NCBI GenBank assembly: GCA_038741495.1
Contig: JAVYKX010000001.1
Location: 552,918-616,917 of the forward strand
Length of the DNA: 64,000 nt
DNA from: Thermofilum sp.
Lineage (GTDB): Archaea > Thermoproteota > Thermoprotei > Thermofilales > Thermofilaceae
Direction: 5' to 3'
The number at the start of each line of letters is the position of its first letter. The stretch's first letter is position 1. Under the pieces are notes generated by a model. That model was given only the letters and a program-made list of their open reading frames with translations, was not told where the DNA came from and did no database searches. The position numbers and the translations under genes are program-made. Below, one piece after another: positions 4,418 to 18,677 of this stretch.

Positions 4418-4987
4418 TTACGCTCGCTGCTGGCAGCCTGTTTTCGCGACGTCTACTATGCGGGCCAGGTAGCCCGGTAGGGCTCCGTGCCTCTTTATGT
4501 ATTCGAGTGTGTGCTGCGTCAGGAGTGTGTGGAATCTGCTTTTCCTGTACTCTCCCCCTCTTCTGCCTAAGCGCCTGTTGATCAGCTCGATGGCTTCGTC
4601 GCACAGCTGGAGGGATGAGCTGCCGGCGATCTCCATGGCTTCGCAGAGCCATACCTCGTGGCAGGGCTTTGAGGGAAGCTGCTTCACCTTCCTCTTGTCA
4701 GCGCCGCTGAGGTTGGCTAGGTGCCTTTGAACGTGCTCCTCTGTAACTTCCCGTTCGAGGTCGTACACTATCAGGATGAGGTTGTAACCCTCCTTGAGGG
4801 CGCCCTCCACGTACCTGGCGAGCTTGTTGTCGCACGCGTTGACTGGCTGCGAGATCCTGTACTCGGCGACCGGCCACTCCACTTGCAGGCCCTGCTCCTC
4901 TCTTAGCCTCGATAGCAGCTTGAAGAGCTCGTCAAGCGCCTTCCTCGCGTAGGTGTTATCGATTACGATGTACAGGTTGCAGCGCAC
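4418..4987 (-). CDS. RloB-like putative TOPRIM/nuclease partner of an AAA ATPase
   Basis: 189 residues. The strand-rich core includes NLYIVID at 4-10, NLILIVYDLE at 69-78 with acidic D76, and PCHEVWL at 108-114. The last resembles the PcFExWL motif of RloB/DUF4276-like proteins, which have been grouped with TOPRIM-type folds. The gene begins 9 bp after the stop of an AAA-type ATPase, which is the classical arrangement of RloA/RloB-like and PARIS-like (ATPase + TOPRIM) defence pairs. The presumed role is an effector nuclease held or activated by the ATPase. The family assignment is based on short motifs and context, so it is moderate; a generic hypothetical ATPase-associated protein is the alternative. 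Confidence 0.55.
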   Translation of the reverse strand: MRCNLYIVIDNTYARKALDELFKLLSRLREEQGLQVEWPVAEYRISQPVNACDNKLARYVEGALKEGYNLILIVYDLEREVTEEHVQRHLANLSGADKRKVKQLPSKPCHEVWLCEAMEIAGSSSLQLCDEAIELINRRLGRRGGEYRKSRFHTLLTQHTLEYIKRHGALPGYLARIVDVAKTGCQQRA

Positions 4988-4996
4988 CCTTAACCC

Positions 4997-6664
4997 CTAC
5001 TCGAGCTTCCCCAGCATTAAGCCGGAGAGGAGGGCCTCGCTGGTGGTGAGCCCCAGCTCGGCCAGCCAGCTCTTCAGCTCTTCGGGCGACTTAGCTCTAA
5101 GCGCCCTTGTTTCGCCCCTCTCCCACTTCAGGAGGACGAGCTCGTCCAGCCTCTTCAAGTAGTCCAGGACGACGGGCGAGTGCGTCGTGATGACTGCGTA
5201 CGCGCCGCTGCTCCTGACCTCGTCGAGAAGGAACTGCTGGGCTAGGGGGTGCAGGCTGTTCTCGAACTCGTCTATAGCGATCACCGAGGGCTTCGAGAGA
5301 AGGGCAGCTTCCACGAGCAGCGCTTTCAGAGCGCCGTCGGGCTGCGAGGGCGGTAGAAGCTTAACCCCGTCGACCTGGATCGAGATGTAGACTCTCCCGT
5401 CGTCGGTGACCGGCATGCCCAGCTTCACCTCCTCGCAGCCCTCGAGAACGTACTCCAGCGCCCCTTCGACCTCCCTCGGGACCCTACCCTCTGTGATTGT
5501 GTAGAGGTAGGGTGCGAGGTTCGACCCGTCGCTCTTCAGCGCTTCCTCCCTGGTGAGAGGCTGTGGGGTTTTCAGCTCGGAGGACTTGACTCCCCGCAGG
5601 ACGACTACCCCCTCTATGAACTCCCAAACCCCCACCGCCGCGCCAGTGATTGCCACAGCACTCTCGAAGGCACTCATCCTCGCCACCTCTGCTAAGGCTT
5701 TCAAAACCAGCCCCCCGATGCTCTCAGCTCCCTTAGAAAGGTCGGGAAGCTTCGCGTTGGACCCAAGATAACTGATCAAGGTCTCTTTCCGCTTCTCCAG
5801 CGCCTCATGGATAGAATCTGTGATCATTTCTTGGAAGATATCTATTAGAGTATCATACCAGTTAATACTTTTCCCAAATCTGTCGTAGATGTACGCCAGC
5901 GTTTCAGTTAATAGCTCGCTGTATTCGATTGTCGGGCGATACACGCTTCTGAACCAGTCCTCGGTGCACAAGGATTCCACAATCCCCACTACTCGGCGGT
6001 AGAGCTCCTCCCGGTCTGGAGCATCAGCGCTTAAAGCTGACTTCATCTTAAGGATAGCATTTTCCAGCTTTAGAAGTTCGCAAAGGTTAATGTCGATGGA
6101 AAACTTTTTCTTCGCAAAGGAGCCGTCAACGCTCAATGACCCTGCCTTGAGCTTGAAGACCTCGTCCTCGGCTGAGAACTTGTGGCGCCCATTCAGGGAG
6201 ACCTCGTAGTAAACCGATAGCTCGTTCGCGCCCAAGAATCTTAGCGCCCTGCCGAGGAGCTCCATGAGATCGCGCGCTGATGAGCGGACCTCCTCCTCAG
6301 TGGTTGCTTCCAGTTCTCTGTCCCGCTCTGCGGCTCTCAGCTTCTCTTCGAGCTTCTCTCTGCTTAGCTTCAGTTTCAGCCCGATGGTGATGCTTCTGGT
6401 TTCGTCGTGCTGGTAGACGACGTTCCTGTAGCCCCACCACTTGGAGAAGGGGTTAGCTGTGCGGCCTCTCGCCCACTCCTGGACGTCCTTGAGGAGCTCG
6501 AGGGCTTCCACGAGCGCTGTCTTGCCTGAGCCGTTGGGCCCGGCGACGACTGTCACGCGCGTGGGGAAGGAGAGCTCGAAGCTTCGAAGCGACTTGAAGT
6601 TTCTAACCACGAGTTTCTCGAGCTCGAAGAGTCTCGCGAAATCCCTCAAGCTGAACTTCTCCAT
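4997..6664 (-). CDS. AAA_15/AAA_21-type ATPase (RloA/OLD-like)
   Basis: About 555 residues. The N-terminus has a RecF/ABC-type strand LEKLVVRNFKSL followed by Walker A GPNGSGKT near 42-49. The middle is a long helical insertion (dimerisation arms). The C-terminus carries IAIDEFENSLHP (Walker B plus D-loop) and TTHSP (H-loop), as in OLD, RloA and AriA ATPases. There is no TOPRIM domain fused to it; instead a separate RloB-like gene follows after 9 bp. An ATG at 6694 exists in frame but lies inside a TATA element, so the ATG at 6664 is preferred. This type of two-gene unit is typical of anti-phage abortive defence; the trigger cannot be read from sequence. Confidence 0.75.
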   Translation of the reverse strand: MEKFSLRDFARLFELEKLVVRNFKSLRSFELSFPTRVTVVAGPNGSGKTALVEALELLKDVQEWARGRTANPFSKWWGYRNVVYQHDETRSITIGLKLKLSREKLEEKLRAAERDRELEATTEEEVRSSARDLMELLGRALRFLGANELSVYYEVSLNGRHKFSAEDEVFKLKAGSLSVDGSFAKKKFSIDINLCELLKLENAILKMKSALSADAPDREELYRRVVGIVESLCTEDWFRSVYRPTIEYSELLTETLAYIYDRFGKSINWYDTLIDIFQEMITDSIHEALEKRKETLISYLGSNAKLPDLSKGAESIGGLVLKALAEVARMSAFESAVAITGAAVGVWEFIEGVVVLRGVKSSELKTPQPLTREEALKSDGSNLAPYLYTITEGRVPREVEGALEYVLEGCEEVKLGMPVTDDGRVYISIQVDGVKLLPPSQPDGALKALLVEAALLSKPSVIAIDEFENSLHPLAQQFLLDEVRSSGAYAVITTHSPVVLDYLKRLDELVLLKWERGETRALRAKSPEELKSWLAELGLTTSEALLSGLMLGKLE

Positions 6665-6936: not shown

Positions 6937-9540
6937 GTGAAGTTCGAGCGGTTAGAGGCTTGGGCTTCGTTCATTTCTTGGTACTCTGGTGTGCTGCTCG
7001 AGCCTTTTGTGAGCCGGCTTCGAAGCGGGGTTTCGCTCGCGCTCTGCGATGCGAGGTTGTCTCTGCTGAGGTTCCTCAAGGGGGATGCCTACCCGTTCAC
7101 GCTGCTCAGGAAAGAGGTTGTGGAGGCGTTCAGGAGGGTGAGGGGGCTCGAGCGTATCGCTCCCACGCCGATACAGGTTCTGGCGGTTCCGCGAATCCTT
7201 AAGGGGAGGAGCGTCCTCATCACTGCTCCGACGGGTTCCGGCAAGACGGAGGCAGCGTTCCTCCCGATCCTGCACAGGCTGCTGGAGGATAAGGAGAGGG
7301 CTGAGCGCGAGGGGGAGGGTTGGCCCAGCGGCGTTCACGTTCTCTACATTACCCCCCTGAGAGCTCTCTGCAGCGACATTGAGGCGAGGCTGGAAAGTTA
7401 CGTGCGGGCGGTGCTGCCGTTCTACTGCCGCGTGTCTGCGTGGCACTCCGACGTGGAGGAAGAGAAGAAGAGGCTGATGGAGGAGAATCCGCCCACCGTG
7501 CTGGTTACGACGCCTGAGTCGCTCGAGTCGATGCTGGATAGGGCGCGGAAAATCAACTTACGCTTGAAGAATCTTAAGTACGTCATCATCGACGAGGTTC
7601 ACGAGCTGGTGGACAGCAAAAGGGGTCATCAGCTGCTCATCCTGTTGGAGCGGTTGAAGTACTCGCTAGGCATAGGGAGGCTGCAGAGGGTGCTTATCTC
7701 AGCCACGGTTGCTGACCCCGCGAGGATCGCCAGAATGTTTGGAGGGTCTGATGGTGCGGTCGAAGTCATCTGCTATCCACGGGTAAGGAGGATGCGAGTC
7801 AGTGTGGTCTTCCGTCCGAGCGCCGACGAGGTGGAAGCGACTAGGGCCTTGAGCGATTTCGTGGGGAGCGAGAAGAGCCTTGTCTTCGTTAGCACCAGAG
7901 CTGAAGCCGAGCAGATACACGCTAGCTTGGAGAAGCTCGGAATCGGTGATTTCGGCGTGCACCACAGCTCATTGAGCCCTGAGGTTAAGCAAGAGGTGGA
8001 AAGTAAGTTTAGGGGTTGCGAGCTTCGAGCGATTGTATGCACTAGGACGCTAGAGCTCGGGATAGATATCGGGAGTGTGGGAAATGTTGTTCAGGTGGGG
8101 TCTCCGTCCCTGCCGGAGGCGCTGGCGCAGAGGCTCGGTAGGAGTGCCCACAGGCCTGGAGGGGAGGCGCGGGGCGTCGTCCTGTGCTTGGAGACATCAG
8201 ACATCTTGGAGACGCTTGCTCTGCTCAGCATGCTGAGCAGAGGTAGGCTAGCTGGCGAGGTGAAGCTTCCCGCTTGCCTTGACGTCGTCGCTCGCACTCT
8301 GACTGCGATCGCGCTTCAGAGGCAGAGGTGCGGGGAAAGAGGGGGGCCCGAGCTGGGCATCAGGGTGCCCGCGAGGGTGGACGAAGCCTTCGCGCTGATA
8401 ACGGCGGTCGAACCATACAGGAAGCTCGAGAGGCGCTCTCTGGAGAGAGTCTTGAGAGAGCTGATGAGCAGGAACGTGCTCAGCCTCGACTCCGGTGCGA
8501 GCACTCTGAGGCTGGGTGAATCCTTTGAGATTATCTGGAAGGGGAAGCGTCGCGGCAGTTTCTTCTCAATGATTCCTGAAAGAGATCACGTAGTCGTGGA
8601 ATATGAGAAGAAAAAAATCGGGGAGATCGACCCCGTTAACCTCCGTTTCATCCGCGTGGGCTCGGTGATACGGCTTGCTGGCGAGAACTGGAGGGTGGTG
8701 AGGATTGGGAGCAAGATCTCTGTGAAGAGGGCTATCGGGGAGAGGTACACTGTGCCGGTGTGGAAAGGGGGATATCTCATGACACCTAGAGCTGTTAGCA
8801 TCGAGACGTGCAGGATTCTATCCCAGCTTCTAAAGAAGCGCGCTCCAGGCGGAGCAGATGGAGTGGGCCCTTACCTCCCTTCCGGAGATCACGTGGCCTT
8901 GGAGCTAGATGGGAACGCTCGCAAGACTGTTGAAGAGTTGCTACGCGAGATTGCTGAGAAACGTCTCCCTCTACCCAGCCCCAGGTTGATGGTTGTGGAG
9001 AAGTTCTCCGCGGAGGAGATGACGCTGGATCGTTTTCTCGAGGGGGTAGAGACGTCGAAAGCTGCGGGTAGATCTGCGGTATCCGTATTCCTGTATCCTT
9101 TCGGAGAACGTTTATCCAACACTCTAGCTTCACTCCTCTGGGGGAGTGGGGAAGTGCGCCTTATTGTGCCGAAAAGCCTTGGAATACTAGTTAAGCACTC
9201 CTCCAAATTCGATCCTTACGCGTACCTTCTGAGCGTACCGAAGGGTATACTGCAGCAATGCATTGAGAACTCTGAAAACCCCTACATCCTAACTTTATCT
9301 TACGAGATGAGGAGGAGCTTCGGGTACATTAAACTGAAGGAAGCGCTCAAGTCCGTCCTTGTTCGTAATGAGAGCGCTCGCCAGGCTTCCGCGCGCTTCT
9401 ACGATGTTGAAGGGGCTTTGAAGCTGCTGAAGTGGATCAGGCACGGCTGCGTCAAGGTGATCCGTAGGGAGGCGGGATCCGTGAAGGAGCTCCACCCGCT
9501 CACGCTCCACATCTTCAGGGCCGACACATTCTTCTACTGA
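6937..9540 (+). CDS. lhr: Lhr-family superfamily 2 DNA/RNA helicase
   Basis: 867 residues. The SF2 core is complete: Q-motif region TPIQ near 77-80, motif I APTGSGKT at 97-104, motif II DEVH at 219-222, motif III SAT at 255-257, motif VI QRLGRSAHRPG near 398-408. The conserved TPESLESML between I and II and the RSAHRPG form of motif VI are typical of Lhr proteins. After residue 430 come the winged-helix and Lhr-specific regions. Lhr proteins are 3'-5' helicases linked to replication-coupled repair or RNA handling. It starts with a GTG behind a TATA box and stands alone, divergent from the ATPase operon. Its 3' end overlaps the convergent PIN gene by 26 bp. Confidence 0.88.
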   Translation: MKFERLEAWASFISWYSGVLLEPFVSRLRSGVSLALCDARLSLLRFLKGDAYPFTLLRKEVVEAFRRVRGLERIAPTPIQVLAVPRILKGRSVLITAPTGSGKTEAAFLPILHRLLEDKERAEREGEGWPSGVHVLYITPLRALCSDIEARLESYVRAVLPFYCRVSAWHSDVEEEKKRLMEENPPTVLVTTPESLESMLDRARKINLRLKNLKYVIIDEVHELVDSKRGHQLLILLERLKYSLGIGRLQRVLISATVADPARIARMFGGSDGAVEVICYPRVRRMRVSVVFRPSADEVEATRALSDFVGSEKSLVFVSTRAEAEQIHASLEKLGIGDFGVHHSSLSPEVKQEVESKFRGCELRAIVCTRTLELGIDIGSVGNVVQVGSPSLPEALAQRLGRSAHRPGGEARGVVLCLETSDILETLALLSMLSRGRLAGEVKLPACLDVVARTLTAIALQRQRCGERGGPELGIRVPARVDEAFALITAVEPYRKLERRSLERVLRELMSRNVLSLDSGASTLRLGESFEIIWKGKRRGSFFSMIPERDHVVVEYEKKKIGEIDPVNLRFIRVGSVIRLAGENWRVVRIGSKISVKRAIGERYTVPVWKGGYLMTPRAVSIETCRILSQLLKKRAPGGADGVGPYLPSGDHVALELDGNARKTVEELLREIAEKRLPLPSPRLMVVEKFSAEEMTLDRFLEGVETSKAAGRSAVSVFLYPFGERLSNTLASLLWGSGEVRLIVPKSLGILVKHSSKFDPYAYLLSVPKGILQQCIENSENPYILTLSYEMRRSFGYIKLKEALKSVLVRNESARQASARFYDVEGALKLLKWIRHGCVKVIRREAGSVKELHPLTLHIFRADTFFY

Positions 9541-9988
9541 CCTTCAGCTCCAGCAAGAAGGCATCGTGTTTCTCGGCTGTTGCCCATATCATGAGATCCT
9601 GGTGGCGGCTCCTCCAGTAGTCTTTTTCACCTACCGTGCTTAAGCGCTGGTAGATGCCTGAAGCTCGCTTCAGGATTTTAGAGTCCCAGGATTGAACGAT
9701 CATGCATTTAAAACTCTGAAAATATTCTCTGATGTCCTTTAAAATACCAACTAAAACCTCAAGCTTCTCTTCTGTAGCGATGTGTTCGACTATAACCATT
9801 CTGGTTAAGGCACGGCGGCACTCGATAAGTATGAGTTCTGGAAGGAGTACGGTGAGCTTATCCTCTATTGACGTTTTGAGAAGCTTTTCTACGAGCTGGG
9901 CGGTTGGAGCTTCGCTTGTTTCAACTAGGTGATCTGCTAGAAGATTAGCGTCGATTACGAGACGACAACCCACGTACTCACCACTCAA
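9515..9988 (-). CDS. PIN-domain ribonuclease-like protein (VapC-type)
   Basis: 157 residues. RLVIDANLLADHL near 9-21 gives the first PIN aspartate (D13), the glutamate of LPELILIECRRAL follows near 55, and the C-terminal HQDLMIWATAEKHDAFLLE supplies the later aspartates. This is the Mg2+-dependent RNase fold of VapC toxins. No recognisable antitoxin precedes it; the upstream partner position is filled by a frameshifted helical gene that overlaps its start by about 11 bp. It converges with and overlaps the end of the Lhr gene. A toxin role is an inference; some archaeal PIN proteins are processing enzymes. Confidence 0.75.
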   Translation of the reverse strand: MSGEYVGCRLVIDANLLADHLVETSEAPTAQLVEKLLKTSIEDKLTVLLPELILIECRRALTRMVIVEHIATEEKLEVLVGILKDIREYFQSFKCMIVQSWDSKILKRASGIYQRLSTVGEKDYWRSRHQDLMIWATAEKHDAFLLELKVSRRMCRP

Positions 9989-10646
9989 AGTAATCTTTGA
10001 AGTTGTACTCGGTGAGGATCTCGCGGATGACTTTCACGCCTACGTCGAGGTAGTAGGAGGCGCGGAGGGCCCTGGCCCAGGCTCCGGGGTCCTTCCAGGG
10101 CTCGGCGCCGGGCTTCCCCACCTTGAGCTCGGCTGCGTACGCTGCCAGCGCGAGAGCTTCTTCCGCGCGCCCGCTGAGGAAGCGCGCCACAGCTGCCAGG
10201 CAGTACAGCTTCTTCGCTCCGGCCGACTTCACCGCAGCGTAGAGGAGCATGTTGAGTGAAGAAACCATGCGTCGTGGAAGTGAAGGTACAGTAGGTGGAT
10301 AGCTTTCAGGAGGATCTCCACGCTCATTTCCAGCCTAACGTCCAGCTCGTAGAAGCTTTCGGAAAGCTCTTCGGGTAGGGTAATCAACCTCGCTGGCTGG
10401 CTGCGCCGCCTGGCTAGCATACCGGGACTCGAGAAGCGCTAAGGATTTGAAAACGACGTCGAGGCTCTGGTGGGAGAAACCCCGGTCGACGGCATCTTCT
10501 AAAGCCAGCTCGGTATCCATCATGATATCTTTCCATGCAGATCTTACTTTATGCGTGAAATTGCTCAACGACTCCTTGAAATTCCTCTTATCTTCCAATT
10601 TTTCAAAATGATCTACAAGCTCGTTAAGAATAGCCACGGACCTCAT
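9978..10646 (-). pseudogene. Frameshifted helical protein upstream of the PIN gene
   Basis: A coding-like stretch on the minus strand moves through three frames. It begins at an ATG at 10646 (MRSVAILNELVDHFEKLED) with a TATA-like AAGTTTTCTTA about 30 bp upstream. It shifts near 10400 to a frame reading RLITLPEELSESFYELDV, then near 10255 to one reading LNMLLYAAVKSAGAKK and ending ILTEYNFKDYFEW. Joined, it gives about 220 mainly helical residues. I do not recognise the family; the last part (repeated Ala-rich helices with YCLAAVARFLSG) looks like a HEPN-like or tetratricopeptide-like helical bundle. The end overlaps the PIN gene start, so it may have been the antitoxin or partner. Two frameshifts indicate decay unless both are sequencing errors. 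Confidence 0.5.
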
Positions 10647-10826
10647 TTCAACCTCGCTCCGAAGAGTACAGTAAGAAAACTTACGCTTTCCGCACTCCCG
10701 CGAAAGGTCTTTGGTTGATGCCCCTGGCAGCTGGCTGGGCCTCCCAAACCCTCTACGGTCTCGAAAAGCTTTCGCGTCCTCAACCAGGCCCCTGGGCGGG
10801 GAGGGGTAGAGGCATAGCACCCTCCC

Positions 10827-11233
10827 TTACCTCTGGGGTGAGGCTTCCTGCACCGTGTTTGGGCGGGGGTGCCAGCTCATGGCTTTCCTCCTTTTGAGCT
10901 GTAGTGCTTCGAGCTCTTCAGCTGCGTGGAGCCTCAGAGTTGCTCTCAACCCGCAGGTTTTCTCGAAGAGCAGTATCCCCCTGAGCGCCGCCAGCCTGAA
11001 GGAGGGGGGAGCGTAGTCGAGCAGCTGGACGTCGATGGGGAGGCCAGCCCTCTCTTCCAAGGTTTCCCGGAGCTCGTCGACGTACACGGGCTCGCTGTCG
11101 TAGCTCACCGCGTACCCTGTGTAGACGGCCACGTCAACATCCCGGAAGATATTTGAGCTCGCAAACCCCCCGTGCACAACCGCTAAGAGCACCTCCCCCG
11201 CTCTTGCAGGAGCCCCCGTAGAAGCTCCAGCAC
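10827..11233 (-). pseudogene. Minimal nucleotidyltransferase (MNT) with a frameshift in its N-terminus
   Basis: The intact frame from a GTG at 11192 reads LLAVVHGGFASSNIFRDVDVAVY, a nucleotidyltransferase GS..R...DvD pattern (HGGFASSN, then DVDVAVY). The preceding helix VLELLRGLLQERG lies in another frame starting at a GTG at 11233, which has a strong purine-rich ribosome site just upstream. Merging the frames requires one shift inside the G5 run (11196-11200). MNT proteins are the antitoxin/AMPylator half of MNT-HEPN pairs. If the shift is real the product lacks its first helix; if it is a homopolymer error the gene is intact, about 135 residues. The C-terminal 30 residues look unstructured. 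Confidence 0.55.
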
Positions 11234-11240
11234 CCCCCTC

Positions 11241-11583
11241 CTCTCCCCCCAGGGCATCGACCTGGGCCGTCGCCTCTCCTCTTCAAGGGTCCTCAGCCTT
11301 GACATACTCCTCCACTTCTTTGATGAAGCGTTCAACCGCCTTTACACCCCTCCCTAACCCTAATTACCAGCCTGACTCTCACCGGTACGCTCCCGGACAC
11401 CCCGGAACTTGATCCGGCCTACCCGCGCCACCCTCCTGAAAACAATCCTCCCCACTCTCGCCAAGCTCCGCACCGAGTCGGCGCGCCGGCTGCCGGCTAA
11501 TAAACCTCTCTCACTATCTTACCGCACTGGCGGGCCGCAGCCTCCTACTCAAGCTTGCGCGCAGAGTGGGTAAAACGGGAAGC
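11241..11583. other. Stretch without an intact gene; weak minus-strand coding remnant
   Basis: No open gene was found. On the minus strand a short piece ending at 11283 reads VKAVERFIKEVEEYVKAEDP. It can be joined to VRVRLVIRVREG in another frame (about 11345-11385) by one shift, which may be the relic of a small antitoxin-like gene. The rest is C-rich on the plus strand with no TATA or repeat that I can recognise. Confidence 0.25.
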
Positions 11584-12027
11584 TTACTCGACTTCGACGC
11601 CGAAGACCTCCTTGAGGAGATTGACGCAGGCAGTGTAGTGCTTCTCTGCTTTCCTGAGGGCTTCGGGCGCGTAGTCCTTAAAGTAGCTTTCATCTGCTCC
11701 CATCTCGTAGCCGTAGCTTGCTATCGCTCTCAGCCTGGCTAGCTCTGATGCATCTTCGGCTAGCTCCTCGAGCTGTGAGGTGAACCATCTTGGTAGCTCT
11801 CTCCTGGAGGGGAGGAGCCTGAGGACTGGGCTGACGTCGTGTACTTTCGGGAACTCTACTCCGAAGGCGATGAGTACTCCCTTTGCAGAGTGCTCGACGG
11901 CCATCTGCGAGGCGTAAACTACATCGTCCCACCTTCCGTCCTCGAGCGCTCTCCTCGCTCCTTGAAGCCACCTCTTCGCCCTCCTGAGCGCTGCTCTCGC
12001 GAGGTCGAGGGTCGTGGCGCTACCCAA
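11584..12027 (-). CDS. HEPN-domain protein, toxin half of an MNT-HEPN pair
   Basis: 147 residues, all helical: DLARAALRRAKRWLQGARRAL, VVYASQMAVEHSAKGVLIAFG and a C-terminal helix KAEKHYTACVNLLKEVF. This is the PF05168-type HEPN fold. The region corresponding to the RX4-6H ribonuclease motif reads RLRAIASYGYEMG: the arginine is there, but the histidine is replaced and tyrosines follow, so RNase activity is uncertain. The tyrosines are candidate targets for AMPylation by the partner MNT, as shown for HepT/MntA. It overlaps the upstream MNT gene by 8 bp and is therefore translationally coupled. Confidence 0.8.
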   Translation of the reverse strand: MGSATTLDLARAALRRAKRWLQGARRALEDGRWDDVVYASQMAVEHSAKGVLIAFGVEFPKVHDVSPVLRLLPSRRELPRWFTSQLEELAEDASELARLRAIASYGYEMGADESYFKDYAPEALRKAEKHYTACVNLLKEVFGVEVE

Positions 12028-12778
12028 GCTTTACCACCTTCTCTCCGCCCAGGATCCAGTAGTACTGCCCGCTCGGCAGCGTGACTCTCACCGCTCCCGC
12101 TTTCTCAAGCTTCTGCTTGACGGAGCGTAGCACCTCGGATATGAAGGATTCTTTGTCGTAGAGCACGATACCCTCCAGCACGAGGTCCAGGTAAGCTGTT
12201 CGGAACTCTCTCGCTTCGTCTTTGGAGAGCGGGTGCGGTTGAATCACCGGCATGTAGCCAGCCTCGATAGCCTTCAGGTACTCGGGGCTTGCCTCGAGCT
12301 CCTTCTCCGCCTTCCGGAGCTCTCTCAGCCTCTCCCAGACTGGTTTACTCTCCCAGCCTTCGGCGACTACGAGGAGGTCTATGTCGCTGTCCTTGCTCCA
12401 GTTTCCCCTCGCCACCGAGCCGAAGAGGACGACGCTCACGAGCCTTTCTCCGAGCGCTTCGTAGAGCTTCTCGCAGAACCTCCTGATGAGTGGGGCGTAG
12501 TAGGCGTGCGGTATCCTCTCGATGTTCTGGATCTTCGGGCGGCTGCGGAGCAGCTCCTCGACTTCGGCCAGCTTCTCTAAAGCTTTCTCGCCCAGCTCGG
12601 TCAGAGAGTATGAGGAACCGTCTCTCTCGACGAGGCCTAGCTTGCTGAGCAGCTTCAGCCTCGAGGAAAGAGTCTTCGGGTTTGGGACAACAGCTCTCAG
12701 CTCTTTAAATCTCGCTCTCCCAGACTCCTTGATCGCTTTGAGCAGCCTCAGCGAGTACTCGTCCACCAGCGAAGCCAT
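12020..12778 (-). CDS. Winged-helix/minimal nucleotidyltransferase fusion, antitoxin of the MNT-HEPN pair
   Basis: 252 residues. Residues 1-75 form a winged helix (ARFKELRAVVPNPKTLSSRLKLL, then ELGEKALEKL), as in ArsR/PadR-like regulators. Residues 110-140 carry the nucleotidyltransferase motif LFGSVARGNWSKDSDIDLLV with G120-S121 and the metal-binding aspartates D132 and D134. The third acidic residue should lie further along, before the C-terminal helices. MNT enzymes neutralise HEPN toxins by adding AMP. The fused winged helix suggests that this antitoxin also represses its own promoter, which has a matching palindrome around its TATA box. HEPN follows with an 8-bp overlap. Confidence 0.82.
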   Translation of the reverse strand: MASLVDEYSLRLLKAIKESGRARFKELRAVVPNPKTLSSRLKLLSKLGLVERDGSSYSLTELGEKALEKLAEVEELLRSRPKIQNIERIPHAYYAPLIRRFCEKLYEALGERLVSVVLFGSVARGNWSKDSDIDLLVVAEGWESKPVWERLRELRKAEKELEASPEYLKAIEAGYMPVIQPHPLSKDEAREFRTAYLDLVLEGIVLYDKESFISEVLRSVKQKLEKAGAVRVTLPSGQYYWILGGEKVVKLG

Positions 12779-12787
12779 GCTATACTA

Positions 12788-12818
12788 CGCTATACCATCG
12801 CTGTATTTAGGTATAGCG
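12788..12818. promoter_or_regulatory. Operator palindrome flanking the TATA box of the MNT-HEPN operon
   Basis: Perfect 9-bp arms CGCTATACC (12788-12796) and GGTATAGCG (12810-12818) are separated by 13 bp that hold the TATA-like CTAAATAC (minus strand, 12802-12809). That TATA lies 24-30 bp upstream of the ATG at 12778. A protein bound to the arms would cover the core promoter. The winged helix of the first gene is the obvious candidate ligand. Confidence 0.65.
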
Positions 12819-12963
12819 ATCGAGCCTAGCGGTCTGCGCCGGTTGCCCACCCCCCTTACCGGCTTACCGGTGCAGCGCCGCCGAGCTTCGAGTCCTTCTA
12901 CACCGTCGTGCTATCTGCGCTGGAGCTTACAAGTGTGTAATACGGAGGGGTGCAATAACGCTC

Positions 12964-12971
12964 TTATATTA
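12964..12971 (+). promoter_or_regulatory. TATA box of the orphan vapB
   Basis: TTATATTA is centred about 21 bp upstream of the TTG at 12988. Confidence 0.4.
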
Positions 12972-12987
12972 CTCCTGGTGGGCTCGA

Positions 12988-13209
12988 TTGTGGAGTACGG
13001 CGGTTTCTGCTAGGGTCGGCAGAGAGGTTTGGGAGAAGGCGAAGAGGTGCGGGATCAGCGTGAGCGAGATGGTCAGGAGGGCTCTCGAGAGGGAGGTGAG
13101 GAGGAGGGAGGTGGATTGGGCGGTCAACGTGATGGATGATATCGCGGGGAGGGCTCAGCTCGATAAACCTTCCTGGCAGGTTATCAGAGAGCACAGGGAG
13201 AAGCTGTGA
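12988..13209 (+). CDS. vapB: VapB-type ribbon-helix-helix antitoxin, partner truncated
   Basis: 73 residues from a TTG. STAVSARVGREVWEKAKR is a strand plus helix A, and GISVSEMVRRALEREV is helix B of a ribbon-helix-helix fold. A charged tail (DKPSWQVIREHREKL) would bind the toxin groove. The stop overlaps the GTG of vapC as GTGA, the canonical vapBC coupling, but the toxin ends after about 13 recognisable residues. The antitoxin is intact and so is either an orphan or acts on another VapC. Confidence 0.75.
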   Translation: MWSTAVSARVGREVWEKAKRCGISVSEMVRRALEREVRRREVDWAVNVMDDIAGRAQLDKPSWQVIREHREKL

Positions 13210-13355
13210 GGATCGTCCTCGACGCTAGCGCTGCTGTGAAGTTTCCGCGCCGGTGCTCATCTCCTCTCATCGGCTTAGGCCTTAGGGCCCGCCCTGCGGC
13301 CTCCACAGCTTTTAGCCGTGGACAGCTGGGGGCGGGTCATGGGGGCAGGCTCTAG
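13206..13355 (+). pseudogene. VapC stump: PIN N-terminus only
   Basis: The GTG at 13206 opens a frame reading VRIVLDASAAVKF, the canonical first strand of a PIN domain with its catalytic aspartate (compare DASVVVKW in the intact neighbour). After codon 13 the sequence becomes unrelated Pro/Arg/Gly-rich text to a TAG at 13353-13355. The remaining roughly 115 residues of the toxin are absent in all frames, so this is a deletion and not a simple frameshift. Confidence 0.7.
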
Positions 13356-13395
13356 AGGTGGGAGCTAGCGGAGGGGGTGAACGGCTGGCGCGGAC

Positions 13396-13833
13396 CTATA
13401 AGCGGAACTCGGAGACGTGCTTTCCCACGTTCAGGTTGGCGATTCTCGCTAGCAGCTTTCCATCTGCCGTGTACAGCGGCGCGCCCAGCTGTAAGGCTAG
13501 CGCTACGTAGCTAGCGTCGTAGATCGTCAACCCCTTTCTCACCGCGATTTCAACCGCTCTATCTGCTACCTCCTCGAAGCTGTGCAGGCTGATCTGCAGA
13601 TCGGCGAGGATTCTAGCAACTTCCTTGAGCTCCTCCTCGCTGAAAGCTCCCGAGTACTTTAGAGCGTTCACCACCTCGAAGGGGAGGATTGCGGGGGCTG
13701 ACAAGTCCACTAGCCCTGCAGCGTACGCGTCTCTCAGCAGCCTGGACTCCCTGCTGTGCTCCTCCTCCACGAACCACTTGACAACGACGGAAGCGTCAAC
13801 TACGCCTCTCCCTCCACTTTCGAATCTCTTCAA
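13396..13833 (-). CDS. vapC: VapC-type PIN ribonuclease toxin
   Basis: About 145 residues. RGVVDASVVVKWF holds the first catalytic aspartate, LPFEVVNALKY the conserved glutamate, and LTIYDASYVALALQLGAPLYTADGKL the last two aspartates, so all four PIN acidic positions are present. The start is uncertain: an in-frame GTG/ATG-class codon lies at 13851, but the TTG at 13833 is closer to the domain start. Both are inside the end of vapB, an overlap of 38-56 bp. It forms an intact vapBC operon and would act as a Mg2+-dependent endoribonuclease when free of VapB. Confidence 0.82.
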   Translation of the reverse strand: MKRFESGGRGVVDASVVVKWFVEEEHSRESRLLRDAYAAGLVDLSAPAILPFEVVNALKYSGAFSEEELKEVARILADLQISLHSFEEVADRAVEIAVRKGLTIYDASYVALALQLGAPLYTADGKLLARIANLNVGKHVSEFRL

Positions 13834-14047
13834 CGCTGCTCCACCCCTCAACCCTCCTCGACAGCTTCTCGCTCCTCAGAACAGCCTCCCTAACCCTGTC
13901 CATGTCCCGGCTCCGGAGCTTCGCCTCCTCTCTGACGACAACCTCGTATATGGCTCTCCGCACGACCTCGCTCCAGTTCACGTGCTTAAGCCTATCCATC
14001 CTCTCCTTCAGCTCTCTACTCACTCTGAAGCTGACGACTACGCTCAC
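13796..14047 (-). CDS. vapB: VapB-type ribbon-helix-helix antitoxin
   Basis: 83 residues when started at the GTG at 14047. VSVVVSFRVSRELKERMDRL and WSEVVRRAIYEVV form a ribbon-helix-helix, followed by a charged linker and VEEIRKWRERRS, the likely VapC-binding tail. A longer reading from 14128 is disfavoured because it would cross the TATA element at 14070-14078. A 16-bp palindrome covers that TATA box, consistent with autorepression by the VapBC complex. The vapC gene follows with overlap. Confidence 0.8.
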   Translation of the reverse strand: MSVVVSFRVSRELKERMDRLKHVNWSEVVRRAIYEVVVREEAKLRSRDMDRVREAVLRSEKLSRRVEGWSSVEEIRKWRERRS

Positions 14048-14066
14048 ACGTCTGTAGTGCAGAAGC

Positions 14067-14082
14067 GTAATATATGTATTAC
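14067..14082. promoter_or_regulatory. Operator palindrome on the vapBC core promoter
   Basis: Arms GTAATA and TATTAC around TATG form a perfect 6-4-6 palindrome. The minus-strand TATA box (ATATATTAC) lies inside it, 25-30 bp upstream of the GTG at 14047. This is the expected position of an autorepression site for a ribbon-helix-helix antitoxin. Confidence 0.55.
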
Positions 14083-14614
14083 TCCCGCGAGCGCCGGGGC
14101 GCGCCCCCTCAAGGGGAGCGCTGAGCATCCCGTTCTTTTCCCGGGCTGGTGGGAACGCGCTTGTGCTCCGCAGGCTGCCTGCACTTCTAGAGTGACGCGT
14201 CTTCTTCCCGCAGACGCTCTACGAGCATGGTTTCGCTGCTGCAGGCTCCGCTGCGTGTTTTTGATAACAACTTTATGCTTTATAATAACTATGTTATCAT
14301 TAGCTCCCGCGCCCTCCTCGAAGACCCCCCAACTTAAGATAACAGCATTATAATCTATGATAACGTTGTTATCACAACTCCCCGGTTTCCGCAACCCCAG
14401 AGGTACCGTCCGCTTGGGGCAGCGGTCTCGGATCCGCTTCACCTGCCTTGACTGTGCGACGGGGCTCGGTTTTCCTCGCAGGTGCTGCCGCGCACCTCTA
14501 ACACCGCCGGCTCCTTGCTCAGCAGGCTGCAACGCTCCGGCGCGCCGCCCCTTTCGGGCTTCTTCCAGCGCGCGAGCCTTTTATAATCCTCAGCGCCTTG
14601 ACGTACTCGCTGCA
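14083..14614. other. Long intergenic stretch with a GATAAC repeat island
   Basis: No gene is seen between the divergent vapB and the coiled-coil nuclease. The flanks are GC-rich, but 14260-14375 is AT-rich and carries GATAAC at 14263, 14338 and 14359 and its complement GTTATC at 14293 and 14368. The pair at 14359-14373 forms GATAAC-GTT-GTTATC. A TTTTATAATCC at about 14579-14590 is a good TATA box for the ATG at 14615. Confidence 0.5.
14263..14373. repeat. Cluster of five GATAAC/GTTATC hexamers in an AT-rich island
   Basis: Three direct and two inverted copies of a 6-bp word occur within 111 bp, including one pair with a 3-bp spacer. Such clustering in a GC-rich genome suggests a protein-binding array. 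It is more than 200 bp from either flanking start codon, which is unusual for a simple operator. Confidence 0.45.
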
Positions 14615-15610
14615 ATGTCCGAGCGCGGGTTGAGAAAGAGGTTCCTGGAGCTCCTGGAGAGGGATAAGGAGTTCCGCCACGCTGTAGCTGGCCTACTCGG
14701 CCTGGGGGAGATTCTGCAGAGGCTCGACAAGAACGAGAAGCAGCTCGTGAAGCTCAGGAGAGACTTGAGGAGGGGGTTCAAGCTCTACGAAGAGGAGATG
14801 GCTAGGCTCAGGGAGGATATGAAGGAGGGGTTTAGAAGGCATGGCGAGGAGATAGCGAGGATCTGGGAGGAGCTCGCGAAGCTTAGGGAGGATATGCAGG
14901 AGGGCTTCAAGAGGCATGACGAGGAGATAGCGAAAATTTGGGAGGAGCTGACCAGGCTTCGCGAGGACATGATCATGGGCTTCAAAAGACACGACGAGGA
15001 GCTTGCTAAGCTCCGCCAAGACATGCTAGAGGGCTTCAAGCGGCACGACGAGGAGATAGCGAAGATCTGGGAGGAGATGGCTAGGCTCAGGGAGGATATG
15101 AAGGAGGGGTTTAGAAGGCATGATGAAGAGCTAGTGAAGCTTAGGGAAGACATGAAGGAGGGGTTTAGGAGGCACGAAGAGGAGATGGCTAGGCTCAGGG
15201 AGGATATGAAGGAGGGGTTTGCGCTCCTTGAGAGGCGAGTTTCAGCGCTAGGTGCACGCTGGGGGTTGATGAGCGAGGCTGCCTTCAGGGAGGGGCTTAG
15301 GAGCCTTGTGGAGAAGGAGTTTGGGTTCAGGGTTAGCAGGTGGGTGAGGTTCGACGAGAGAGGGGTTGTGTACGGCTACCCGAGCCAGGTAGAGATCGAT
15401 GTGGCGGTGCACGACGAGAGGATTATCCTTGTGGAGATCAAGTCCAACGTGAGGGCTTCAGACGTCTACACGTTCAAGAGGAAGGCTGAGCTGTACGAGG
15501 AGCTGGAGGGCAGGAAGCCGTCGAGGCTGGTCCTGGTAACCCCATACGCTGAGGAGGAGGCAGTGGAGGCGGCGAGGCACCTAGGCGTAGAGATCTGCAC
15601 GGAGGTTTAG
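14615..15610 (+). CDS. Coiled-coil PD-(D/E)XK nuclease-like protein (DUF3782 type)
   Basis: 331 residues from the ATG at 14615. Residues 1-45 are helical; about 45-205 is a repeated coil in which units such as ARLREDMKEGFRRHDEE recur about nine times in variant form. The C-terminal 120 residues are a restriction-endonuclease-like fold: YGYPSQVEIDVAVHDERIILVEIKS gives the D...E-X-K core, followed by YTFKRKAELYEEL. DUF3782 proteins of this layout are frequent in crenarchaea and of unknown role; the coil probably oligomerises or acts as a ruler that positions the nuclease. The longer frame back to 14357 is not coding-like. The gene stands alone. Confidence 0.8.
   Translation: MSERGLRKRFLELLERDKEFRHAVAGLLGLGEILQRLDKNEKQLVKLRRDLRRGFKLYEEEMARLREDMKEGFRRHGEEIARIWEELAKLREDMQEGFKRHDEEIAKIWEELTRLREDMIMGFKRHDEELAKLRQDMLEGFKRHDEEIAKIWEEMARLREDMKEGFRRHDEELVKLREDMKEGFRRHEEEMARLREDMKEGFALLERRVSALGARWGLMSEAAFREGLRSLVEKEFGFRVSRWVRFDERGVVYGYPSQVEIDVAVHDERIILVEIKSNVRASDVYTFKRKAELYEELEGRKPSRLVLVTPYAEEEAVEAARHLGVEICTEV
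14792..15220 (+). repeat. Three identical 42-bp direct repeats inside the coiled-coil gene
   Basis: The same 42-bp stretch occurs without mismatch at 14792-14833, 15071-15112 and 15179-15220, and partial copies lie between. It encodes the repeated coil unit with ARLREDMKEGF. Identity at silent positions suggests recent duplication or gene conversion. Confidence 0.75.
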
Positions 15611-15708: not shown

Positions 15709-16731
15709 TCACGCGAGCTCGGCTTCGACTTCGAGCCCTGTGAGGGCGGTGAAGGCCCTCGCCTTCTCGGAGAGCCTGCCTCCGGCTTGCGCGATCAGGC
15801 TCCACTCGAGCTGGAAGACAAGCCTCGAGCCGCGTAGCTCGACTCCGCGGTAGAGGCCTTCACCCTCGTATACGCTGTTGAAAGCGTCCGCGAGCCTCAC
15901 AGCCGCAGCTACGAGCTGGGCAGCAGTGCCCATTCTCCGCAGCTCTACGTCGCCGAGGAGGTCTGTAGCCCGCCTGTGGTGGAGCACGGCTTTTGCGACC
16001 AGGAGGGGGTTACAGCAGCTCCTGACTTCGGGCATCTCAGCAGCGAAGAGAGCCCCCGCCGCGTGGTGGTTCTCGCTACTTGCGAGCACTCTACCTACGT
16101 CGTGGAGGAGGCCAGCCGCGTAGGCGGAGCGGAGCTCGGCCTTCGAGAGCCCGTAGCTGTCCGAGATTGTTTCCAGCACGTCGAGCGCTACGTTAGCGAC
16201 AGTAGAAGCGTGCGCAGCGTAGGTAGCCCAGTAGCTCCCACCGCGCTCTCCGCCCACATTCTTCAGCTTCTTCACTACTGCTGCGATCCAGCCGGGGCCG
16301 ATCAAGTCTCTCGCCCTGAAGAACCAGCGGAACGCTAGCTGCTGGGAGAGCGTCTCGCCCTGAAAGCCCAGCCTAGCTAGCTTCTCCTTCACCTCCCCCG
16401 CCGAGGCACCGCTCCTGAGGCCGAGGATCATGGAGACTACTACGCCGCTCCTCCCTATGCCCCCACGGCAGTGGACGAGCACCTTCTCGCCCTGCTTCAG
16501 CCGCTCGAGCGCGGGGAGCGCGACCTCCACGAGGACATCCTCGAAGGCCTTGAAGGAGAAGTCGGGTATAGGGTACTCGAGCTTCTCGACGCCTTGCGGT
16601 AGCGCGTAGCGGCACTCACCCATCGTTAAGTCGACGACTAGGCTCACGCCCTCCCTGGCCAGCGCTGCTACGGTTTCGCTGTCAGGGCACGAGGACCAGT
16701 AGAGGTTGTCGAGCGCACGGAGCTTAACCAT
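15709..16731 (-). CDS. Fusion of a dual-specificity tyrosine phosphatase and an HD phosphohydrolase
   Basis: 340 residues. Residues 1-145 are a cysteine phosphatase: P-loop VHCRGGIGRSG with C88 and R94, and a likely general acid D57 in IPDFSF. Residues 165-300 are an HD domain with H174, H210-D211 (GLLHDVGR), H222/H223, H251/H252 and D282 (RLADAF), the complete metal-binding set. The HD part is nearest to HD/HDIG or Ppx-GppA C-terminal-type domains by eye. The combination suggests hydrolysis of two phosphate bonds, either on one small-molecule ligand or as a regulated protein phosphatase. A TATA box at 16755-16761 gives it its own promoter, 85 bp after csx3. Confidence 0.82.
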   Translation of the reverse strand: MVKLRALDNLYWSSCPDSETVAALAREGVSLVVDLTMGECRYALPQGVEKLEYPIPDFSFKAFEDVLVEVALPALERLKQGEKVLVHCRGGIGRSGVVVSMILGLRSGASAGEVKEKLARLGFQGETLSQQLAFRWFFRARDLIGPGWIAAVVKKLKNVGGERGGSYWATYAAHASTVANVALDVLETISDSYGLSKAELRSAYAAGLLHDVGRVLASSENHHAAGALFAAEMPEVRSCCNPLLVAKAVLHHRRATDLLGDVELRRMGTAAQLVAAAVRLADAFNSVYEGEGLYRGVELRGSRLVFQLEWSLIAQAGGRLSEKARAFTALTGLEVEAELA

Positions 16732-16816: not shown

Positions 16817-17113
16817 CTAGGGTAGCGTGCCCACCTCTATGACTTCGCCGATTTCGCGCTCCGGGGTGTGCGTTTCGACGACTACTGCGCCGATCCTGGG
16901 GTCGTAGACGGCTACGAACTTCGCCGGGTGGTAGTGGTGGACGAGGAAGCCGTACAGCCAGATGGGGCCCCGCCCGCTCAGAACAACCCCCTTAGCCAGG
17001 TTAACGGCGGGAGGCTTAACCGACTGCAGGTCCCGCGGCTCCAGCACGCCCTCAAGATCGAAGTGAACTACCGTGTATTCCTCTCTCTGGATTACCTTGA
17101 AGCTGACCTTCAT
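16817..17113 (-). CDS. csx3: Csx3, CRISPR-associated ring-nuclease family protein, without CRISPR neighbours
   Basis: 98 residues. The family signature is clear: LEPRDL near 24-29, GVVLSGRGPIWLYGFLVHHY at 42-61, AVYDPR at 68-73 and THTPE near 81-85. Conserved polar residues H59/H60, D71, R73 and H82 are candidates for the active site. Csx3 proteins degrade cyclic tetra-adenylate made by type III CRISPR complexes, or bind RNA; they work as multimers sandwiching the ligand. No cas gene or repeat array occurs in this window. The ATG at 17113 has a TTTAAA 35 bp upstream and a GGGAG ribosome site. The phosphatase-HD gene follows on the same strand. Confidence 0.85.
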   Translation of the reverse strand: MKVSFKVIQREEYTVVHFDLEGVLEPRDLQSVKPPAVNLAKGVVLSGRGPIWLYGFLVHHYHPAKFVAVYDPRIGAVVVETHTPEREIGEVIEVGTLP

Positions 17114-17464
17114 AGGTGCTCCCGCCGGCTCACGTAGCGCTCGAATTTAAAGCCTAGCCCCCAGCTCCCGCCGCGGTTGGAGGCGATTTGCAGCTATCTG
17201 CTACTGGGGTTCCGCCCGGAGGGCGAGGAAGCCGCGCGACCTTCTGAGGGGCGCGGGCTTCAAGGTAGATAAGTGTCTTGAATCCATGGGAGTCGCCCTG
17301 GTGAGGGCTGTCACAGCCTAAAGGGCGCTTTAGCCACTTTGGCGAAGAACACACCTCTACGAAATCCGGGAGATCTCCAGCTATGCTGAGAAGCCTTGCC
17401 TCGGCTTTCTCTGAAGGCAGCTTTCCCCCGCGCGGAGCCGCACCCATCTTATTTCATAAAATAT

Positions 17465-17540: not shown

Positions 17541-18677
17541 ATGAAGCTAAGCAAAACCAGGTTGATAACCATCGGAGCCGCTGTAGCTCTAGTGGCTGTC
17601 GCCGCGCTACTTCTCCTGCAGCGCCCCGCGCCCTCTTCCAGCTCGCCTTCAGAGCCTCAGCTCACCGAGGCTGTAGTGCTGCTACAGGGTAGTGGGGCCA
17701 CGTTCCCGATGGAGCAGATCCTGGCTTGGGCCTCGCGGGTGAGGCAAGCCCACCCCTGGCTGCGGGTCGAGTACGCTGGCGGCGGCTCGGGGAAGGGGCA
17801 GAGCGACTTCCTGCAGGGGGTTGTGGACTTCGCCTGCAGCGACGTGCCTCTCAAGACAGTGGACTGGGAGAAGGCTAGGGCGCAGTTTGGCGGCGTGTAC
17901 CAGCTTCCGATTATTCTCGGCGGGGTAGCGGTGGTTTACAACATTCCGGAGATCCCGGTGGGCGTTAACCTGCGCTTATCGGCTGAGGTCCTTGCCGACA
18001 TCCTGCTGGGGAAAATCGAGTACTGGGATGACGCGAGGATAAGGGAGCTCAACCCGGGCGTCAGCTTGCCGCACGCTAAGATTACTTTCGTACACAGGAG
18101 TGACGCGAGCGGCACGACCGAGGTCTTCACCACGTTCCTCAGCATTTACTCCGCGGAGTGGAAAGAGAAGGTGGGCGCCGGCAAGACCGTGAAGTGGCCT
18201 CTCGACGAGCTCGGCCGAGGCGTAGGCGCGCCGGGCAACCCTGGTGTAGCCCAGGCGGTGAAGAGCACTCCCTACTCTATAGGCTACGTAGAGCTCGCTT
18301 ACGCGAAAGGGCTGGGGGTAGCTGCGATCAAGAATAAGGCTGGTAACTTCGTCTTGCCGAGCGCGGATTCGATCAGAGCTGCTGCCGGCGCCACCGCTAT
18401 CGCTGACGCTAGCGTGAACCTCGCTGAGCTGAAGATACTAGAGAGCATTCTCCGCTCTGACAGGCCGGACGCCTACCCAATCGCTTCCCCAAGCTACATG
18501 TACGTGAGGCCTCCTGCAGCGTACACTCCCGAGAAGAGGAAAGCTATCGCGGCTTTCCTGGAGTACATCTTCTCTAAGGGGCAGTCTCCCGAGAACGTGG
18601 TCGAAGGCTACGTGCCAGTGCCTGAGAGCTGGCGCCAGCTAGGGCTTGAGGTGGCTGCAGAGTTCAAGAAGCAATAG
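17541..18677 (+). CDS. pstS: Phosphate ABC transporter, substrate-binding protein PstS
   Basis: 378 residues. Residues 8-27 are a hydrophobic signal or anchor segment followed by a Ser/Pro linker. The binding fold begins LLQGSGATFP and contains GGGSGKGQSDFLQGVVDFACSD, the GSG...D phosphate-binding loop, then VHRSDASGTTEVFTTFL and GNPGVAQAVKSTPYSIGYVE, all hallmarks of PstS. It captures orthophosphate outside the cell and feeds PstCA. It is the first gene of pstSCAB with a TATA box and palindrome upstream; 88 bp of AT-rich sequence separates it from pstC, so some transcripts may end between them. Confidence 0.93.
   Translation: MKLSKTRLITIGAAVALVAVAALLLLQRPAPSSSSPSEPQLTEAVVLLQGSGATFPMEQILAWASRVRQAHPWLRVEYAGGGSGKGQSDFLQGVVDFACSDVPLKTVDWEKARAQFGGVYQLPIILGGVAVVYNIPEIPVGVNLRLSAEVLADILLGKIEYWDDARIRELNPGVSLPHAKITFVHRSDASGTTEVFTTFLSIYSAEWKEKVGAGKTVKWPLDELGRGVGAPGNPGVAQAVKSTPYSIGYVELAYAKGLGVAAIKNKAGNFVLPSADSIRAAAGATAIADASVNLAELKILESILRSDRPDAYPIASPSYMYVRPPAAYTPEKRKAIAAFLEYIFSKGQSPENVVEGYVPVPESWRQLGLEVAAEFKKQ

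Follow-up and report, generated by a model that had tools for sequence, protein, structure and literature searches.

The closest described counterpart of the gene examined here is AfCsx3 of A. fulgidus (AF1864; PDB 3WZI, 6YUD, 6VJG), two dimers of which sandwich cyclic tetra-adenylate (cA4) and cut it with Mn2+ (PMC7371418). H60 and D69 are essential in this protein, R71 and H80 are important, and H57, S44, G45, R46, I49, and I22 are conserved (PMC7371418). Published Csx3 orthologues adjoin III-B operons, Csx1 genes, or CARF genes (PMC7371418). Crn1 and Crn2/AcrIII-1 resemble Csx3 in being stand-alone cA4-degrading enzymes, and Crn1 is in use by crenarchaeal type III systems, but their folds (CARF and DUF1874, respectively) differ from that of Csx3. 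For 31 type III loci that have a ring nuclease but no local effector, it was proposed earlier that the nuclease serves a different type III locus of the genome in trans (PMC12409355). That survey covered 6 kb around type III loci, and a distant Csx3 like the one described here would go uncounted.

We analysed a window of 64,000 nucleotides (C1:552918-616917) from a 1.6 Mb Thermofilum genome that comprises four contigs and is 95.9% complete. An ORF on the minus strand of this window (16817..17113, 98 aa, ATG start), located at 569.7-570.0 kb of the 815.3-kb contig C1, had been named Csx3 in a first-pass annotation, which left the strand unstated. Judged by its sequence, the product is indeed a member of the Crn3/Csx3 family, with matches far above chance to Pfam PF09620 Cas_csx3 (E 1.3e-32, 111.9 bits, cut-off 21) and NCBIfam TIGR02579 Crn3/Csx3 (120.8 bits, cut-off 55.4). 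PADLOC makes the same call, and the closest match in a sequence search of the PDB is A. fulgidus Csx3 (E 4.6e-29), to which the protein is 53% identical over the domain and which is likewise a free-standing protein of ~100 aa. Identities to other archaeal Csx3 range from 53% to 56%. The GC3 of the gene (0.79) is close to that of the neighbouring genes and the cas genes, and a possible archaeal TATA element (GCTTTAAATTC, 17142..17152, minus strand), recognised by eye ~30-40 bases 5' of the ATG, points to a separate promoter for csx3.

Alignment with AfCsx3 places the equivalents of the residues named above at H62, D71, R73, H82, H59, S46, G47, R48, I51, and L24. The last of these is the only listed residue that is changed (I22 in AfCsx3), and the replacement is conservative; the catalytic and cA4-contact residues are otherwise the same. 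On the minus strand, the codons for the cA4-contact loop S46-G47-R48-G49-P50-I51 (AfCsx3 S44, G45, R46, I49) span 16961..16978, and those for H59-H60-Y61-H62, which include the presumed Mn2+ ligands (AfCsx3 H57, H60), span 16928..16939. The catalytic half-site on the other face, D71-P72-R73 (AfCsx3 D69, R71), is encoded at 16895..16903, and H82 (AfCsx3 H80) at 16868..16870 (all by alignment and PMC7371418). An AlphaFold2 model built on two sequences (mean pLDDT 72, below 50 at the C-terminus) has as its top match in the PDB the AfCsx3 structure with bound cA4 (6yud, TM 0.82, E 1.1e-10), and all 13 top matches are AfCsx3 structures. With a model of moderate quality, the protein is thus predicted to share the Csx3 fold. 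The full candidate catalytic set that had been claimed from the letters alone was recovered, and the loss of the active site that might have spoken against it was not found.

The genomic location of this gene differs from that of the published orthologues (PMC7371418), and the usual, although not obligatory, position of Csx3 in or beside a type III locus does not apply. Searching the window for direct repeats revealed no CRISPR array, and genome-wide searches for the Cas10 palm, Csx1 CARF, and APE2256 CARF families gave matches on contig C3 only and none in the window. In a PADLOC scan of 60 window ORFs, the 25 families listed of 245 matching ones include no cas effector, generic Cas3-helicase matches aside. 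The absence of arrays and cas genes from the window noted in the first-pass annotation was therefore borne out, and its concern that a cas operon might lie just outside the region did not materialise; we rejected a nearby operon because the Cas10 and Csx1 matches are confined to C3. Its label "orphan" is appropriate for the window but not for the genome, since a III-B operon whose Cas10 has the GGDD motif is present on C3. The csx3 gene lies 245 kb from the nearer end of C1 and cas10 about 5 kb from the nearer end of C3, so that csx3, with unrelated genes adjoining it, is separated from the operon by at least about 250 kb, the minimum if those contig ends abut.

The genome has a single Csx3 match and a single match to the Cas10 palm, the latter at about 158.2-161.6 kb on C3. 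This Cas10 belongs to a III-B (Cmr) operon with the order Cmr4, Cmr5, two RAMP proteins, Cas10/Cmr2, Cmr3, and a 565-aa CARF protein (Csx1), directly followed by a CRISPR array of 17 repeats. Its palm domains contain YAGGDDLMAF and RADGDNIGKL, and LLHDPPEKPW is found near the N-terminus (all recognised by eye), so the cyclase (GGDD) site and the HD site both seem intact. The C-terminal part of Csx1, a CARF-HEPN protein, contains RNFYAH, which by eye fits an R-x4-H motif. Encoded upstream of the operon are Cas6, Csa1, and Cas1, as well as a type I-A module of Csa3 (a CARF and winged-helix regulator), Csa2/Cas7, and a Cas3-type helicase, accompanied by an 84-copy CRISPR array. The 120-167 kb stretch of C3 (G000:C3; loci L057, L003, L005) thus holds the type I-A module followed by the complete III-B operon, and its two arrays have different repeats. 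The genome that encodes Csx3 thus also encodes a CARF effector and a cyclase-competent III-B system, and the search of the genome for type III cas genes and a Cas10 cyclase motif that had been recommended lends support, through the operon, the GGDD Cas10, Csx1, and the arrays, to the earlier suggestion that Csx3 serves a type III system elsewhere.

We consider it very likely that the window gene encodes a stand-alone Crn3/Csx3 cA4 ring nuclease that acts in trans, and it is best read as a correctly annotated gene whose product is a ring nuclease of a known kind and whose location is unusual. The C3 Cmr complex would bind target RNA, upon which the palm of its Cas10 would make cA4, the probable signal in this organism. 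This cA4 would activate Csx1 and probably modulate Csa3; Saccharolobus Csa3 is reported to recognise cA4 (PMC8699464). By analogy with AfCsx3 (PMC7371418), Csx3 dimers would stack head to tail around cA4, combining H62 and H59 of one dimer with D71 and R73 of the next as catalytic halves, and would cut it with Mn2+ to linear A2P, returning the cell to rest. The gene is presumably expressed and its enzyme active, as far as the sequence allows such a prediction, and its physiological role would be to reset or dampen signalling. As cA4 diffuses, gene distance is no obstacle, and an off-switch need not adjoin the system it serves. Looking at cas neighbourhoods is hence not enough to decide whether a ring nuclease is present; surveys within a few kb of Cas10 would score the III-B system of this genome as lacking an off-switch.

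A family search of the genome found no Crn2 (DUF1874 family), and Crn1 was not recognised, as the sole APE2256-type CARF match is Csa3. Among the Crn1, Crn2, and Csx3 families covered, no stand-alone ring nuclease other than Csx3 was thus detected. Csx1 proteins can themselves break down cA4 (PMC7371418), and the C3 Csx1 may do so as well.

A different function could be suspected from the immediate neighbours of csx3. As the first-pass annotation had pointed out, the gene sits between a phosphatase and a phosphate importer: a dual-specificity-type phosphatase with an HD domain (DSP-HD, 15709..16731, minus strand) begins 85 bases 3' of csx3 on the same strand, and PstS (17541..18677, plus strand), the first gene of the pst importer cluster, is divergent from it. 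Csx3 might accordingly have been repurposed to degrade or sense another nucleotide signal linked to these proteins, and its original description as an RNA deadenylase (PMC7371418) as well as the close, co-oriented spacing to the phosphatase gene and the adjoining pst cluster would fit this view. However, a homologue of the phosphatase-HD protein occurs in 15 of the 17 genomes of the family and PstS in 12 of 17, and the two genes are never together but on separate contigs or hundreds of kb apart (e.g. at C1:446 kb and 886 kb in G026, and at C2:31 kb and 998 kb in G022). The genes flanking the phosphatase-HD gene vary between genomes, Csx3 was not found beside either gene in other genomes of the family, and the junction of csx3 with its flanks is not conserved in close relatives, so that csx3 and its flanks seem to have been brought together by a local rearrangement. 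Because the two flanking genes are unlinked in the relatives, the location of csx3 gives little information on its function; the phosphatase-HD protein, kept in the family without Csx3, is probably not part of Csx3 function, and PstS is probably unrelated to it. On these grounds we rejected a functional link between csx3 and the phosphatase or pst genes. The unchanged cA4-contact and catalytic residues and the presence of a cyclase-bearing type III system in the genome also argue against repurposing, which we regard as improbable, and nothing was found in favour of the other nucleotide signal that had been raised as an option.

Several further features were observed on the phosphatase side of csx3. 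The gene at 14357-15610 encodes a protein that combines DUF3782 with PD-(D/E)XK and whose coiled-coil region consists of 54/75-base repeats; the protein matches PADLOC C3a181 (E 1.4e-24). Similar 54-base repeats occur on C3 (L057 2448-2996). Just past the phosphatase and DUF3782 genes, at 9978-14128, small genes resemble HEPN/nucleotidyltransferase and PIN/ribbon-helix-helix toxin-antitoxin pairs (by eye), forming a putative toxin-antitoxin cluster.

The distribution of Csx3 is sporadic. Within the order, it was found only in the window genome (1 of 27), and Cas10 is present in 11 of 27; the ten genomes with Cas10 and without Csx3 indicate that Csx3 is dispensable. This patchiness, together with intact Csx3 genes on phage-like contigs (see below), would be compatible with capture of an anti-CRISPR ring nuclease from a virus, or with a remnant of a provirus, that the chromosome has retained or that is now decaying there. 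Yet none of the genes directly adjoining csx3 was recognised as virus-like, the composition of the gene is like that of its host, and the protein clusters with archaeal cellular Csx3 rather than with phage Csx3 (support 0.90, on a short alignment), making viral capture an unlikely origin. That csx3 is a non-functional remnant of a rearranged ancestral cas locus is hardly credible: its detachment from the operon and the Cas10-bearing relatives that manage without it would fit, but the reading frame is intact, every catalytic residue is kept, and the identity to other archaeal Csx3 is at the level given above, whereas decay would be expected in a gene of 98 codons that is not under selection.

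Across the phylum, Csx3 is encoded by 7 of the 398 genomes sampled, in five of them together with Cas10. Csx3 lies ~12.5 kb from Cas10 in G069 (L020), near cas4-, cas2-, and cas1-like genes (by eye), and ~6.6 kb from Cas10 in G129. A single-protein scan of genome contigs yielded one related locus, L011, that adjoins a CARF gene, and a plasmid scan yielded three bacterial crn3 genes. Close relatives of the window Csx3 are therefore located in or near cas loci (L020 of G069) or beside a CARF gene (L011). Neither a Cas10 nor a RAMP match was found in the Csx3-encoding genomes G160 and G088, both of which are nearly complete, and their Csx3 genes have a stronger claim to be true orphans than the window gene. 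In G160 (L013/L021, 8938-9237, G160:C25), the gene is located at a contig end of a fragmented genome, in which the absence of Cas10 is not proven; in G088 (L024, 8199-8528, G088:C3), it adjoins an APE2256 CARF gene and stretches resembling CRISPR repeats.

Scanning IMG/VR with a Csx3 alignment revealed five loci, and a second scan added a sixth contig; the six contigs range from 77 to 273 kb. Phage-type genes are recognisable near csx3 on four of them: DNA primase and UvsX in L060 (Csx3 at 4953-5288), a Dda-like helicase in L062 (4974-5270), an RNA polymerase beta-like protein in L063 (4992-5285), and a terminase in L064 (about 5001-5294). For L061 (4974-5285) and L067 (9965-10333), the phage assignment comes mainly from IMG/VR. 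The pooled proteins of the phage-like loci match virion, endolysin, integrase, and RusA families, matches that are not assignable to single contigs. All six proteins have the S-G-R motif, both histidines, the aspartate, the arginine, and the last histidine at the AfCsx3 positions, and no cas effector besides Csx3 was found in the flanks among the 25 PADLOC families listed. Searches of the INPHARED phages with three Csx3 queries gave no match, and a study of 28,114 phage genomes (PMC12409355) listed only AcrIII-1/Crn2, Csx20, and Csx16; a literature search of partial coverage found no report of a phage-encoded Crn3.

We hypothesise that these six proteins are candidate phage-encoded Crn3 anti-CRISPRs. 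A broader proposal, namely that Csx3 is separable from type III loci as an independent off-switch or dampener and that the same enzyme serves phages as an anti-CRISPR, is possible but tentative, its phage half setting six phage-like contigs with intact Csx3 against none in two sequenced-phage collections. If host cA4 were degraded by phage Csx3 with complete active sites, these would widen the known range of viral ring nucleases. The window gene is no more than the entry point to this lead, and the side lead may matter more than the gene itself. Divergent Csx3-like proteins also occur elsewhere in the phylum. One is encoded at L023 7555-7974 (G348:C17), in a proviral-looking stretch that also encodes a tail tape-measure-like protein and contains many short ORFs, and two tandem copies are found in L025 at 9047-9358 and about 9403-9735 (G276:C189).
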